A stretch of DNA of 64,000 nt from Rhabdaerophilum sp. SD176 (GTDB lineage Bacteria > Pseudomonadota > Alphaproteobacteria > Rhizobiales > Beijerinckiaceae). The first letter of the stretch is position 1. Each line of letters starts with the position of its first letter. A program made the position numbers and the translations under genes. Below the pieces are notes generated by a model. It searched no databases and was not told where the DNA came from. It saw nothing but the letters and a program-made list of their open reading frames with translations. Below are positions 16,062-56,057 of this stretch, piece after piece. Location: assembly GCF_030143245.1 (NCBI RefSeq), contig NZ_JARJNS010000002.1:62001-126000 (forward strand). Reading direction: 5' to 3'.

Positions 16062-16085
16062 GCAGGGCGCGTCCGGGCTGTTCCA

Positions 16086-16108
16086 AAGGGGCCCGCGGGC
16101 CCCTTTTT
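16086..16108 (+). terminator. Intrinsic terminator of the atp operon
   Basis: A GGGGCCCG/CGGGCCCC self-complementary stem is followed by a run of five T residues, 25 bases after the atpC stop. The opposite strand has only three T residues after the stem, so it should act mainly on the plus strand. The convergent barrel-protein gene ends 5 bases further on. Confidence 0.85.
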
Positions 16109-20671: not shown

Positions 20672-20678
20672 CGAAAAA

Positions 20679-20700
20679 GGCGGGCCTGAGCCCGCCTTTC
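20679..20700. terminator. Bidirectional intrinsic terminator between putR and the terC-type gene
   Basis: A 7-bp stem GGCGGGC/GCCCGCC with a CTGA-type loop has TTTC on its plus-strand side and five T residues on its minus-strand side (AAAAA at 20674-20678). It lies 7 bases after the putR stop and about 26 bases beyond the end of the convergent membrane-protein gene, so it can end both transcripts. Confidence 0.8.
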
Positions 20701-51319: not shown

Positions 51320-52810
51320 TCAATCGAAGGCGCGGAACCCTTCGCTCATGGCGAGGGGTGGCTGCGCCTTCAGCCATTCGATGTCCGGCTCCGGCCGGGC
51401 GGTGTCTTCCGAGCCTGCGAAGATCGTTTCCAGCGCCCTGGCAGCGGCGAGCACCTTCAGATCTCCGCCTCTCGGCCCGACAATCTGGATTCCGAACGGC
51501 ATGCCTGCGTGATCGCGCCCGACAGGAATCGCGATTGCCGGGTGGCCTGTCAGCGTGACGGCATAGGCCAAAGCCAGCCACTGATAGTAGGTCCGTGTCG
51601 GTTGCCCGTCGATTTCTGCCGGATAGAGCTCGCGCCAGGCGCGCGGGCTGATCGTGATGGCCGGTGTCACGAGCAGGTCAAACCGCTCGAAGAACCCCTG
51701 CCACGACCGGTACATTGCCGTCTGCAGCGACAGCGCACGCGCCACATCGACCGCCGTGTACCGGAGGCCTTCCGCAATCTGCTGGTGGATATTGGGGCCG
51801 ACCTGGTCGGGATGGCGCTCCGCCAGTTCCCGGTGCCGGCCCAGGAACATCACCCCGCGCAGGATCCCGAACGCCTCATCCGCATCACGGCAATCCGGAT
51901 GCGTTTCCTCGATCGATCCGACTTCCCTCGCAAGGCGCGCGCATTTCGTCGCGAAAACCGTCCGGATCGCGCTTTCCGTCGGCGCGAAGCCGAGATCGGC
52001 GGATACAGCGAGCCGCATTCCGCGGAGCTCGACGGGTGGCGGATCGGCGAAGAGCGCCGCCTCGACCCGGCCTTCATGGGCAATGACCGAGATGGAATCC
52101 GTTGCGCTCCGTTCCATCATGCAGGAGGCCATCAGGCCGGCATCGGCGACATTCCGGGCCATCGGTCCGAGCTGGGCCAGCTGGATCCAGCTCATGTTCC
52201 GGCTGTCACTGGCGACCAGCCCCGGCGAGGGCCTGTAGCCGACAATCCCGTTGAAGGCGGCCGGGTTGCGGAGTGAGCCGCCGGTATCGGACCCCGTGGC
52301 CAGCGGCACCATGCCGGTAGCGACCGCCACGGCAGATCCGCCCGAGGAGCCGGCCGCCGAGCGCGACGGATCAAACGGATTGCCGGTCACGCCATGCACG
52401 GCATTGCGCGTATTTCCGCCGGCACCCCATTCGGGCGTGTTGGTCTTGCCGATCACGATCGCGCCGGCCCGTCGCAACATGGCGACGATCGCCTCGTCCT
52501 TCGCGGCCCGGTTCGCGGCAAAAAGTGGCGAGCCGAACGTTGTCGGCAGGCCCTTTGCATCGATGAGATCCTTCACGGCCAGCGGCAGGCCGTGGAGGGG
52601 GCCCAGCGGATCGCCGCGCATGATCGCGGCTTCCTTTTCCCTGGCCTCCGCCAGGGCGCCCTCGAAATCCCGGGCGATCATGGCATTGACCGCCGGATCG
52701 ACCGCCTCGATCCGGGCGATGCAGCTCTTGACCAGTTCAACCGGCGAGAGCGCGCGAGAAGCCATCGCCTGCCGCGCAATGACGGCAGGGAGATCACAGG
52801 GTTCGGCCAT
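51320..52810 (-). CDS. Amidase, amidase-signature family
   Basis: This 496-residue amide hydrolase has the Ser-cisSer-Lys triad of the amidase-signature family: lysine in PLAVKDLIDAKG, the Gly/Ser-rich GSSGGSAVAVATG and the nucleophile region GSDTGGSLRNPAAF. No cysteine-rich or C-terminal extension is visible. The substrate is unknown; it could be an aryl or aliphatic amide rather than Glu-tRNA. It lies 6 bases behind a Bug-type binding-protein gene under a MarR-type regulator, so a small amide or acid is a likely target. Confidence 0.9.
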   Translation of the reverse strand: MAEPCDLPAVIARQAMASRALSPVELVKSCIARIEAVDPAVNAMIARDFEGALAEAREKEAAIMRGDPLGPLHGLPLAVKDLIDAKGLPTTFGSPLFAANRAAKDEAIVAMLRRAGAIVIGKTNTPEWGAGGNTRNAVHGVTGNPFDPSRSAAGSSGGSAVAVATGMVPLATGSDTGGSLRNPAAFNGIVGYRPSPGLVASDSRNMSWIQLAQLGPMARNVADAGLMASCMMERSATDSISVIAHEGRVEAALFADPPPVELRGMRLAVSADLGFAPTESAIRTVFATKCARLAREVGSIEETHPDCRDADEAFGILRGVMFLGRHRELAERHPDQVGPNIHQQIAEGLRYTAVDVARALSLQTAMYRSWQGFFERFDLLVTPAITISPRAWRELYPAEIDGQPTRTYYQWLALAYAVTLTGHPAIAIPVGRDHAGMPFGIQIVGPRGGDLKVLAAARALETIFAGSEDTARPEPDIEWLKAQPPLAMSEGFRAFD

Positions 52811-52816
52811 GGATGC

Positions 52817-53791
52817 CTACTCTGCCTTGATGCCGGCCTGGGCTGCGATGGCCTTCATCGCGGCGATCTCGGCGGCGATCGTCGCCGACCAATCCGGATA
52901 GGTCCTGTAGGCGGGTTCGAAGCCGGCCTTGAGCATCTTCTCCTTCATGACCGGGTCCTGCAGCATGGCCGCCACAGCATCCGAAAGCACCCTGCGGGCA
53001 TCCGCCGGCACACCCTTTGCCGTGACGAGCGCGACCCAGGACGAGAGGTCGATGTCCTTGTATCCAAGCTCCCGGAGTGTCGGCACGTCCGGCATCATGG
53101 CCGATCGGCTTGCCATCGTGACGGCGAGGGGCCGGATCTTGCCGGCCTCGACCTGCGGTTTCGCCGCGACGATCGTGTCGACCAGATAGGGAATATGCCG
53201 GGCCACAAGGTCATTCATGGCCGGGCCACTGCCGCGATAGGGAACATGCACCATCCGGATTCCCGCCGTGGCCTTGAACCACTCGCCGCCGAAATGCGAG
53301 ACGGTGGCATTGCCGAAGGAGGCCATATTGAGCTTGTCCGGTTCGGCCCTTGCGGCCGCCACAAGCCCCGCGACGTCCCGGACCGGGTTGTCGGCATGGG
53401 TCAGCAGCACAAGGCCGATCGTCGCGAGTTGGGCGATCGGCTCGAAATCCTTCGTCGCGTCATAAGGAATCTTCGGGATCACGGCGGGATTGAGCGTGAA
53501 GGTCGAATTGGAGCTGAGGAACAGGGTGTAGCCGTCCGCCGGGGCAGCGATCAGCGCCTGTGCGCCGATGATCGTTCCGGCTCCGGGCCGGTTGACCACG
53601 ATCACCGACTGGCCGAGCCGCTTCTCGAGATCTCCGGCGATCATGCGGGCGAAAATATCGGCCGCGCCGCCGGGCGCATAGGGCGCGATGATCTGGATGG
53701 TTTTCTCGGGGAAGCGGGTCTGGCTCATGGCCGGGGAAAACCCCGGAAAGGCGAGCAACAATCCCAGAAACACGGATAAAAGATGTGCCAT
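52817..53791 (-). CDS. Tripartite tricarboxylate transporter substrate-binding protein (Bug/TctC family)
   Basis: This 324-residue periplasmic binding protein has a signal peptide (residues 1-26, ending AMSQTRFP) and the Bug-family motif KTIQIIAPYAPGGAADIFARM, then VVVNRPGAGTIIGA and PADGYTLFLSS. Bug proteins bind carboxylates, amides or aromatic acids. No TctA or TctB membrane subunits are adjacent, so it is an orphan binding protein, as is common in this family. ATG 53791 is chosen for its GGAGGGC ribosome-binding site and signal peptide. It is divergent from the marR gene across a perfect palindrome. Confidence 0.92.
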   Translation of the reverse strand: MAHLLSVFLGLLLAFPGFSPAMSQTRFPEKTIQIIAPYAPGGAADIFARMIAGDLEKRLGQSVIVVNRPGAGTIIGAQALIAAPADGYTLFLSSNSTFTLNPAVIPKIPYDATKDFEPIAQLATIGLVLLTHADNPVRDVAGLVAAARAEPDKLNMASFGNATVSHFGGEWFKATAGIRMVHVPYRGSGPAMNDLVARHIPYLVDTIVAAKPQVEAGKIRPLAVTMASRSAMMPDVPTLRELGYKDIDLSSWVALVTAKGVPADARRVLSDAVAAMLQDPVMKEKMLKAGFEPAYRTYPDWSATIAAEIAAMKAIAAQAGIKAE

Positions 53792-53856
53792 GATGCCCTC
53801 CTGAAGACATGAGCCTGACCGGTGTTTTCCGGCAAGGCGGCCCTCAAGGGAAGCCT

Positions 53857-53897
53857 TATTTAGTTGATTTGTCAATAATTGACAAATCAACTATATG
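53857..53897. promoter_or_regulatory. Perfect 33-bp palindrome covering two divergent promoters (MarR operator)
   Basis: The arms TAGTTGATTTGTCAA (53861-53875) and TTGACAAATCAACTA (53879-53893) are perfectly complementary with a 3-base spacer TAA. Each strand carries TTGTCA inside the palindrome and a -10 17 bases further: TATATG (53892-53897) towards marR and TAAATA (53862-53857) towards the binding-protein gene. One dimeric regulator bound here would block both promoters. Confidence 0.8.
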
Positions 53898-53927
53898 ATC
53901 CGCCCCATCCAGCGCGAGTTCTGTGCC

Positions 53928-54386
53928 ATGTCGACCCATGATCTCGAGAACCTGATCACGTTCCGCCTCGCGCGCCTTGTCTCGGAGCTGAACCGGCAGA
54001 GCAACCGCCTGCTGCGGCAGACCGGTGGGCTGAATGTTCCGGAATGGCGCGTGGTGTCGCTGCTCGGGAAGGGCGGGGAGATGAACGGACGGCAGCTGGG
54101 CAGCCTCGCCCGGCTGGATCCGGGCCTTCTCAGCCGGACACTGAACGGCCTCGAACAGCGGGGGCTGATCCTCACGACACGCCGCCCGGATGATCGCCGC
54201 GCTGTCTGGGCCAGCCTGACACCGGCGGGATGGGATGTGGAGAAGGCGACGCGGCCCGTCATGCTCGCGCGGCACGAGCGCCTCATGGCATCGTTGTCGT
54301 CGGAGCAGCAGGCCATCATCCTGCCGTTGATCGATCAGCTCTCCCAGACCATTGCCGCCGAGAATGCCGCCAGCGGCGAGGAATGA
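53928..54386 (+). CDS. MarR-family transcriptional regulator
   Basis: This 152-residue winged-helix regulator has the MarR recognition helix (LARLDPGLLSRTLNGLEQRG) and wing (TTRRPDDRRAVWASLTPAG). The frame is open from 53895, but that ATG overlaps the predicted -10 element and lies upstream of the expected transcription start, so the ATG at 53928 (MSTHDLENLITF) is chosen; it also gives the usual length. It probably represses itself and the divergent binding-protein/amidase operon through the palindrome between them and may sense the substrate. It is convergent with the Lrp-type gene, with no bases between their stops. Confidence 0.88.
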   Translation: MSTHDLENLITFRLARLVSELNRQSNRLLRQTGGLNVPEWRVVSLLGKGGEMNGRQLGSLARLDPGLLSRTLNGLEQRGLILTTRRPDDRRAVWASLTPAGWDVEKATRPVMLARHERLMASLSSEQQAIILPLIDQLSQTIAAENAASGEE

Positions 54387-54851
54387 TCAGAAATCCAGCT
54401 CCGCATTGTCGATGACCTCCTTCATGACGAAGAAGGTTCGCGTCTGCCTGACGCCGGGCAGGCGAATCAGCTGGTCGCCATGGAGCAGGTTGAAATCGGC
54501 GATGTCGCGCACGCGGATCTTGAGGAAGAAATCGAAGTCGCCGGCAACAAGGTGGCAATCCAGCACGAAGGCCAGCTTCCGGATCGCGGCCTCGAACGCG
54601 CCGAAGCTTTCCGGTGTCGAGCGGTCCAGTTCGACGCCGACAATCACCAGCGTCCCGCGCTCGACCTTCTGCGGCGCGATCTCGGCCCGGACCTGGCGGA
54701 TATAGCCCAGATCGAACAGGCGCTTCGTGCGCCGGTGGCAGGTTGCCGGGCTGGTATGGACCAGGGCTGCCAGTTCGGCATTCGACATCCGCCCGTCCTG
54801 CTGCAGCAGCTTGAGAATCCGGCGGTCGACACGGTCGATTTTCTCGTCCAT
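54387..54851 (-). CDS. acdR: Lrp/AsnC-family regulator of ACC deaminase
   Basis: This 154-residue Lrp/AsnC protein has an N-terminal helix-turn-helix ([31 protein letters not shown]) and a C-terminal RAM domain ([38 protein letters not shown]). Start 54851 (MDEKID) is preferred over 54866 since GAAAG is 8 bases upstream; a 7-bp inverted repeat covers this spot. Position divergent from acdS matches the known AcdR arrangement, in which AcdR activates acdS in response to ACC. The symbol is by context and family. Confidence 0.85.
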
Positions 54852-54866
54852 GAAAGAATCTTTCAT
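54850..54866. promoter_or_regulatory. Inverted repeat at the acdR start
   Basis: ATGAAAG-AAT-CTTTCAT forms a 7+7 bp palindrome at the acdR start codon; a related half-site TGAAAGA occurs at 54905-54911 in the AT-rich intergenic region before acdS. These may be Lrp-type binding sites for AcdR. The rest of the 153-base gap is AT-rich with no clear hexamers. Confidence 0.4.
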
Positions 54867-55004: not shown

Positions 55005-56024
55005 ATGATCCGACTCGACAAATTCGAACGCTATCCGCTGACCTTCGGCCCAACGCCGATCGAACCGATGCGCCGGATGAGTGCCGCCCTCGGCGGCAAA
55101 GTGAATCTTTTTGCCAAGCGCGATGATTGCAATTCCGGCCTTGCCTTCGGGGGCAACAAGCTGCGCAAGCTCGAATACATCGTGCCGGATATCCTGGCGA
55201 AGAAGGCCGACACGCTGGTCTCCATTGGCGGAGTCCAGTCGAACCATACCCGCATGGTCGCCGCGACGGCCGCGAAGCTTGGCCTGAAATGCGTCGTGGT
55301 GCAGGAAAGCTGGGTGCCCCATGAGGATGCCGTCTATGACCGCGTTGGCAACATCCTGTTGACCCGCCTGATGGGCGCCGACAGCCGCATCGTGCCGGAC
55401 GGGTTCGATATCGGCATCCGCAGGAGCTGGGAGGATGCGATCCAGTCCGTCAAGGATGCCGGCGGCGTACCGTATGGCATTCCGGCCGGCGCTTCGGTGC
55501 ACCCCTATGGCGGGCTTGGTTATGTCGGTTTCGCCGAGGAGGTCCGCAAGCAGGAGGCCGAGATGGGCATCCGCTTCGATTACATCATCGTCTGCGTTGT
55601 CACCGGTTCCACCCAGGCGGGCATGATCGTGGGCTTCGCCGATGACAACCGCGCCGACCGCGTGATCGGGATCGATGCCTCGGGCACACCGGATCAGACC
55701 CGCGAGCAGGTGCGCGCGATCGTCGACAACACGGCCGGGCTGGTCGAGCTCGGCCGCCCGGTGCGCGACGACGAGATCGTGATCCTCAACGACTATGCCT
55801 ATCCGGCCTATGGCATTCCCAGCGCCGAGACCAACGAGGCGATCCGGTTCGCTGCCCGCACGGAAGCGATGATCACCGACCCGGTCTATGAGGGGAAGTC
55901 GATGCAGGCGATGATCGACCTTGTGAAGAAAGGCTATTTCCCGGCCGGGTCGAACGTCCTCTATGCCCATCTCGGCGGCGCGCCGGCGATCAACGGCTAC
56001 AGCTACACCTATCGCAACGGCTGA
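55005..56024 (+). CDS. acdS: 1-aminocyclopropane-1-carboxylate deaminase
   Basis: This 339-residue PLP enzyme cleaves ACC, the precursor of ethylene in plants, to 2-oxobutyrate and ammonia. The PLP lysine is K52 in [10 protein letters not shown]; the residues that separate ACC deaminases from D-cysteine desulfhydrases are present as Tyr295-Glu296 (VYEGKSM) and Leu323 (AHLGG), each shifted by one from the well-studied Pseudomonas enzyme. The ATG at 55005 has an AGGAGG ribosome-binding site; the longer open frame from 54480 is spurious. The divergent Lrp-type gene is the likely regulator. Confidence 0.95.
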
Positions 56025-56030
56025 GGCCGG

Positions 56031-56057
56031 CGGCCCCGGACCTTTTTTCCGGGGCCG
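56031..56057. terminator. Strong hairpin between acdS and idnD-like gene
   Basis: A 10-bp stem CGGCCCCGGA/TCCGGGGCCG with a 7-base loop (CCTTTTT) lies 6 bases after acdS and 8 bases after the end of the convergent dehydrogenase gene. The T residues are in the loop and no T-run follows, but position and stability suggest a bidirectional transcription stop. Confidence 0.55.

Follow-up and report, generated by a model that had tools for sequence, protein, structure and literature searches.

A perfect palindrome between divergent marR and Bug-amidase genes is probably a pair of smaller, conserved MarR boxes

A long, exact palindrome between two divergent genes raises the question of whether its whole symmetry, or a smaller part of it, makes up the regulatory site. 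In the window, i.e., the whole stretch of 64,000 nucleotides analysed here, such a repeat lies at 53861–53893, in the intergenic region separating a marR gene (plus strand) from a divergent TctC/Bug gene and an amidase gene. It reads TAGTTGATTTGTCAAT-A-ATTGACAAATCAACTA, with two perfectly matching arms of 16 bases around a central A, and is the same object that an earlier note on this DNA had correctly described as a 15+15 palindrome with a 3-base spacer. With gaps of 0–8 bases allowed, it outranks every other perfect inverted repeat of the window, the arms of the runners-up being 11 and 10 bases long. First-order Markov shuffling of the window, repeated 30 times, gave longest arms of 9 to 14, thus making a chance origin of the 16-base arms unlikely. 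The 27-bp core of the palindrome occurs at a single place in the 3.96 Mb genome when up to three mismatches are tolerated. The next longest perfect hairpins in the window, at 16085–16106, 20676–20699 and 56031–56057, are G+C-rich, with arms of 10–11 bases; the last one comes after the 1-aminocyclopropane-1-carboxylate (ACC) deaminase gene, and all three are possibly terminators.

The gene on the right (53928–54386, plus strand) encodes a MarR-family regulator, whose winged-helix domain matched PF01047 with E = 2.8e-11 and 43.5 bits, above the curated cut-off of 24.6. Its start was taken at 53928, where an ATG is found in 5/5 genomes of the genus; an alternative in-frame ATG at 53895, inside a putative −10 element, is lost in three of the four congeners and kept in L033 alone. 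The NCBIfam models of HpaR and SlyA, which belong to the MarR family like the window protein, both matched it, with scores (39.1 and 25.3 bits, respectively) far below their cut-offs (121.2 and 120), indicating that it is neither HpaR nor SlyA. No molecule named BpsR was present among 42 structure matches, and the nicotinate regulators BpsR and NicR were set aside as a guide to the ligand, since the available portion of PMC6837509 contains no comparable box and nothing could be transferred.

On the opposite side, a TctC/Bug periplasmic binding protein is encoded on the minus strand (52817–53791, start at 53791; PF03401, E = 9.2e-72), separated by 6 bp from the gene of an amidase-signature enzyme on the same strand (51320–52810; PF01425, E = 1.4e-91). 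The two genes are probably co-transcribed as a Bug-amidase operon. The amidase reached no NCBIfam cut-off among 25 of the 26 families listed. Genome-wide, 18 TctC and 6 TctA matches were counted, and 0/6 TctA matches were on contig C17, which holds this Bug gene; the TctC member has no TctA beside it, as a complete tripartite tricarboxylate transporter would, and the Bug protein is an orphan by that test, in agreement with the earlier note. In this it resembles Bordetella Bug27 and Bug69, described as binding quinolinate in the part of PMC11452294 at hand; according to the same text their homologues are linked to NadQ and nadC, whereas the window Bug has a MarR gene and an amidase gene as its neighbours.

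All four congeners share the gene order DEAD-box helicase, amidase, Bug, marR, Lrp-type regulator and ACC deaminase, the amidase thus being linked throughout the genus. The last two genes form a divergent pair of their own, with the Lrp-type regulator at 54387–54866 (minus strand) and the deaminase at 55005–56024 (plus strand; TIGR01274, 551.5 bits, cut-off 392), and are 93.7–98.8% identical in the four congener genomes. The two next nearest marR orthologues (≈50% identity), from two family members of another genus, each retain a divergent Bug (68–72% identity) together with one box, and the 8 kb of sequence retrieved around them contained no match to the amidase.

Within the palindrome, two predicted MarR boxes of 12 bp with the pattern TTGA-N4-TCAA were recognised, box 1 (TTGATTTGTCAA, 53864–53875) and box 2 (TTGACAAATCAA, 53879–53890), having centres 15 bp apart and the consensus TTGAYNNRTCAA. 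Their conservation was followed in marR orthologues of 88–92% identity from four other genomes of the genus (17 genomes examined, window included), the named congener contigs being Beijerinckiaceae or Hyphomicrobiales MAGs. Across the five genomes, the TTGA/TCAA letters were invariant at 8/8 positions in box 1 and 7/8 in box 2, with 1/4 and 0/4 invariant letters in the respective N4. Taken together, 15 of 16 box letters were invariant versus 2 of 11 spacer letters (1/8 inside the N4s and 1/3 between the boxes), and the leaders were less invariant than the boxes (28/65 for Bug, 12/37 for marR). In L035, box 2 differs at one letter (TTGATCGATCAG). At least one intact box was present in 5/5 genus genomes found with this marR, as well as in the two next orthologues.

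The symmetry behaved differently. In the intergenic alignment, all 16 arm pairs match in the window but only 14, 11, 11 and 10 in L032, L033, L034 and L035, respectively. As the symmetry decays and the box letters hold, the exact palindrome appears to consist of two boxes with spacers that mirror each other by chance in this genome, and the conserved unit is probably the pair of 12-bp TTGA-N4-TCAA boxes, smaller than the palindrome, perfect symmetry probably not being the conserved feature. A role of the exact palindrome as a single functional unit is therefore not supported: the same palindrome, sought in genomes with this gene pair, was exact in 0/4 congener orthologues, where the two boxes persist, and the 33-bp palindrome was set aside as functional unit on account of this loss. 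Its exactness had also been called unusual; given two boxes, and if mirroring is required of Y, N, N and R alone, we estimate that it would arise by chance in about 1 in 64 genomes, so the exactness is then unremarkable.

One long operator, in which a MarR dimer or tetramer would read the 33-bp palindrome, or a dimer its central GTCAA-TAA-TTGAC, with symmetric control of both directions, would suit the perfect symmetry seen in this genome as well as the conservation of the inner TCAA-N3-TTGA. The latter, however, is composed of box letters, which accounts for its conservation, and the outer TTGA and TCAA (7/8 letters invariant) hold like the inner ones (8/8), while the arm symmetry declines as given above. 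Moreover, among seven more distant MarR-Bug loci, five have a single 12-bp box, without long symmetry, and two have a second box at 21 or 39 bp. We consider a long operator unlikely. The perfect 16-bp arms could likewise form a stem and act as a structural element, an RNA hairpin or a terminator, rather than as a protein operator; yet the sequence is A+T-rich and without a T run, no terminator-like site was found in 53600–54200, and the arm pairing is lost in the congeners, making this explanation highly improbable.

The palindrome had also been proposed to embed two promoters. The claimed hexamers are indeed present on both strands with spacers of 17 bases, TTGTCA (53869–53874) and TATATG (53892–53897) rightward, TTGTCA (53880–53885) and TAAATA (53857–53862) leftward on the other strand, the latter pair giving a putative Bug-amidase promoter TTGTCA-N17-TAAATA at 53857–53885 (minus strand). 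A sigma-70 scan of 53600–54200 returned no promoter at the scan threshold. The sequence CTTGAC-N17-CTATAT is given as a promoter query for S. meliloti in the accessible text of PMC2573895. Compared with it, the rightward site, read as TTTGTC-N17-CTATAT (53868–53896, plus strand; one and the same site as TTGTCA-N17-TATATG, shifted by one base), shows two mismatches, being one of four such sites in the window on both strands, and is a putative, poorly conserved marR promoter. The leftward site shows three mismatches, being one of 21 sites with exactly three, and the corresponding congener sites have at least four. The rightward TTGTCA becomes NNGTCA in 4/4 congeners and the leftward one likewise loses its TT; the first two letters of each TTGTCA sit in box spacers, and the −35 elements are not conserved. 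Under the leftward −10, the plus-strand TATTTA is kept in 4/5 genomes, L034 having AATTTA. Hexamers and spacers of the proposal thus stood, whereas the putative promoters themselves are modest, with unconserved −35s and weak −10s. By position, it is plausible that the boxes overlap both putative promoters.

The reading that we prefer, with a probability of about 0.8, is that of a MarR autoregulatory divergon, in which two tandem dimer-binding boxes would repress both marR and the Bug-amidase genes until released by a ligand. An inverted-repeat box does lie between marR and its divergent target and is conserved beyond its flanks. In the absence of inducer, the MarR protein of the neighbouring gene would bind both boxes, covering the −35 regions and extending in the direction of both putative −10 elements, thereby repressing marR's own promoter and that of the predicted Bug-amidase operon. 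MarR would be released by a small ligand, possibly an organic acid or amide that the Bug protein helps to import or that the amidase produces. Given the distance of 15 bp between the box centres, the two dimers would be placed on almost opposite sides of the helix. The earlier proposal of a MarR operator controlling both directions agrees with the conservation of the boxes in the divergent marR/Bug-amidase region, over both putative promoters; what is not supported is the single exact palindrome as its unit.

Divergent MarR operators are textbook knowledge. In the excerpt of PMC9892617 available, the MexR sites PI and PII, each with an inverted GTTGA, overlap the mexR promoter and that of the divergent efflux operon, and two adjacent sites are said to be common in MarR operators. 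Our locus is similar to this mexR-mexAB-oprM arrangement of Pseudomonas aeruginosa, with a regulator, a target operon and two inverted-repeat sites (GTTGA/TCAAC in MexR). As far as that excerpt goes, it differs in the gap between half-sites (5 bp in MexR, 4 bp between TTGA and TCAA here), in the targets (efflux genes for MexR, genes of uptake and an amidase in the window) and in the symmetry, MexR PII being asymmetric outside the half-sites and the present site fully symmetric.

Homologues of the MarR were collected at order level (E up to 1e-25; 3/397 genomes), phylum level (E up to 1e-25; 2/398) and class level (1e-22; 53/327), own genome included in each case; the class-level search was the source of most of the distant homologues, and its best 29 loci besides the window's own were used. 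Its query, the alignment A3 of seven MarRs that have the box, favours the box subgroup. Viral contigs yielded no relative of the MarR. In 35 scored MarR loci (L017 lying outside this set, and L007 and L063 being the same place), all 17 TTGA-N4-TCAA boxes lay between −300 and +12 relative to the start of marR, a total of 10,920 bp, whereas the remaining 107,290 bp contained no box.

A box upstream of marR was present in 12/12 distinct loci with a divergent Bug and in 3/51 distinct loci without (Fisher p = 1.7e-10), L007 and L063 being one place that was counted once in the pooled table. When the Bug loci alone were collapsed by us to six lineages, the others being left uncollapsed, the association was still strong (Fisher p = 2.3e-6). 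Bug genes were called by tblastn within ≈1.5 kb, by which some distant Bugs may be missed, using the window Bug alone as query for the first set and the window Bug together with that of the paralogue L064 for the second; L013, which lacks a box and whose Bug is not divergent but on the same strand, was counted as having no divergent Bug, and L074 and L077, at contig edges, were read by hand. Since 48 of the 51 loci without divergent Bug have no box, the box is not a general mark of MarR genes. In a MarR tree with 63 rows, one group gathers 12 Bug-linked, two box-only and one other member, with weak support (91/72) and long branches, above all L073 with L074; L089 falls outside it. Judged from these sequences, the box is a property of a MarR subgroup and not of MarR proteins at large, so that the association with Bug partly reflects shared ancestry and not 12 independent events. 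Among 21 boxes listed, a set without the altered box 2 of L035 and without the pairs at L041, L051 and L052, 19 fit TTGAYNNRTCAA, the exceptions being TTGACACCTCAA and TTGATCGCTCAA.

The three boxed loci without divergent Bug (L063, L077 and L089) each have a divergent sulfatase gene across the box instead. At class level, the divergent gene of L074, L075 and L076 is TctC-like, and each of these loci has a single box and, next to marR, a sulfatase gene; the TctC piece of L074 scores 23.4 bits, under the Pfam cut-off of 27. L062 combines these genes with a pair of boxes at a distance of 21 bp. A boxed MarR beside a sulfatase thus recurs in these seven loci as a MarR-Bug-sulfatase unit, four of them carrying the divergent TctC-like gene; the sulfatases were confirmed by Pfam in L062, L063, L074, L077 and L089, and recognised by eye from the sequence in L075 and L076. 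As Bug is kept across two genera and the hydrolase varies between amidase and sulfatase, an amide should not be inferred as ligand from the regulator alone.

The nearest paralogue in the same genome, L064 (G000:C18:467766–469439, marR at C18:469026), forms a second MarR-Bug divergon, with a divergent Bug of 35% identity and two boxes 39 bp apart. As this paralogue shares the upstream TTGA-N4-TCAA boxes and the divergent Bug, cross-talk is possible, and the main binder of our site could be another regulator, such as the paralogue (G000:C18:469026) or a TetR-type protein, leaving the adjacent MarR without a role. Against this, the box and the neighbouring marR occur together in 5/5 genus genomes and in the two next orthologues, and we regard the action of another regulator as quite improbable compared with autoregulation by the adjacent MarR.

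The boxes were also searched for from the DNA side. Paired TTGA-N4-TCAA boxes (spacer 0–12) were found in 18/397 family genomes versus 3 for the reversed control, and four of the 18 represent this operator and its orthologues. Three further sites adjoin unrelated MarR genes, identified by tblastn for L052 and L051/L059 and by reading frames and Pfam for L041/L060; in 11 of the 18 genomes no MarR beside the site was found by tblastn, a method by which the MarR of L060 went undetected as well. The MarR-linked pair at L059 2978–3004 precedes a carotenoid-oxygenase-like gene, and that at L060 2704–2732 separates marR from an FAD-monooxygenase-like gene, the names of the two enzymes having been assigned by eye. 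Four of the 11 genomes without MarR match (L038, L039, L040 and L042, of one related genus) have pairs of a different, TTGAG-type, i.e., TTGAGYGCTCAA-like palindromes with an 8-base spacer, adjoining a gene start that by eye resembles a short-chain dehydrogenase. In the own genome, TTGAYNNRTCAA occurs at six sites and its reversed control at two; of the six, two make up this operator and one sits upstream of the paralogous MarR-Bug pair. The idea of a more extended regulon in the genome was rejected, the remaining three sites being near the control level, and inspection of the site upstream of a small secreted-looking protein (L066) found no link.

According to the available part of PMC11452294, orphan periplasmic binding proteins are a large group with functions mainly unassigned. 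Among titles and abstract openings, no published description was found of a MarR subgroup whose members share this box and adjoin genes for Bug proteins, sulfatases or amidases. That an undescribed MarR subgroup with the box TTGAYNNRTCAA controls orphan Bugs together with hydrolases, sulfatases elsewhere and an amidase here, is a proposal whose chances we hold to be evenly balanced. The locus illustrates that perfect symmetry in a single genome can mislead, the conserved unit being smaller; the part worth following is the MarR subgroup with its shared box at orphan Bug genes. Its value would lie in giving these MarR regulators, and through them the orphan periplasmic binding proteins, a concrete operator code that links Bug genes to the enzymes that Bugs may feed. 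If the proposal is true, the box would predict shared regulation and help to assign ligands to orphan Bugs, and the product of the hydrolase, or its substrate, would be both the inducer and the Bug ligand.
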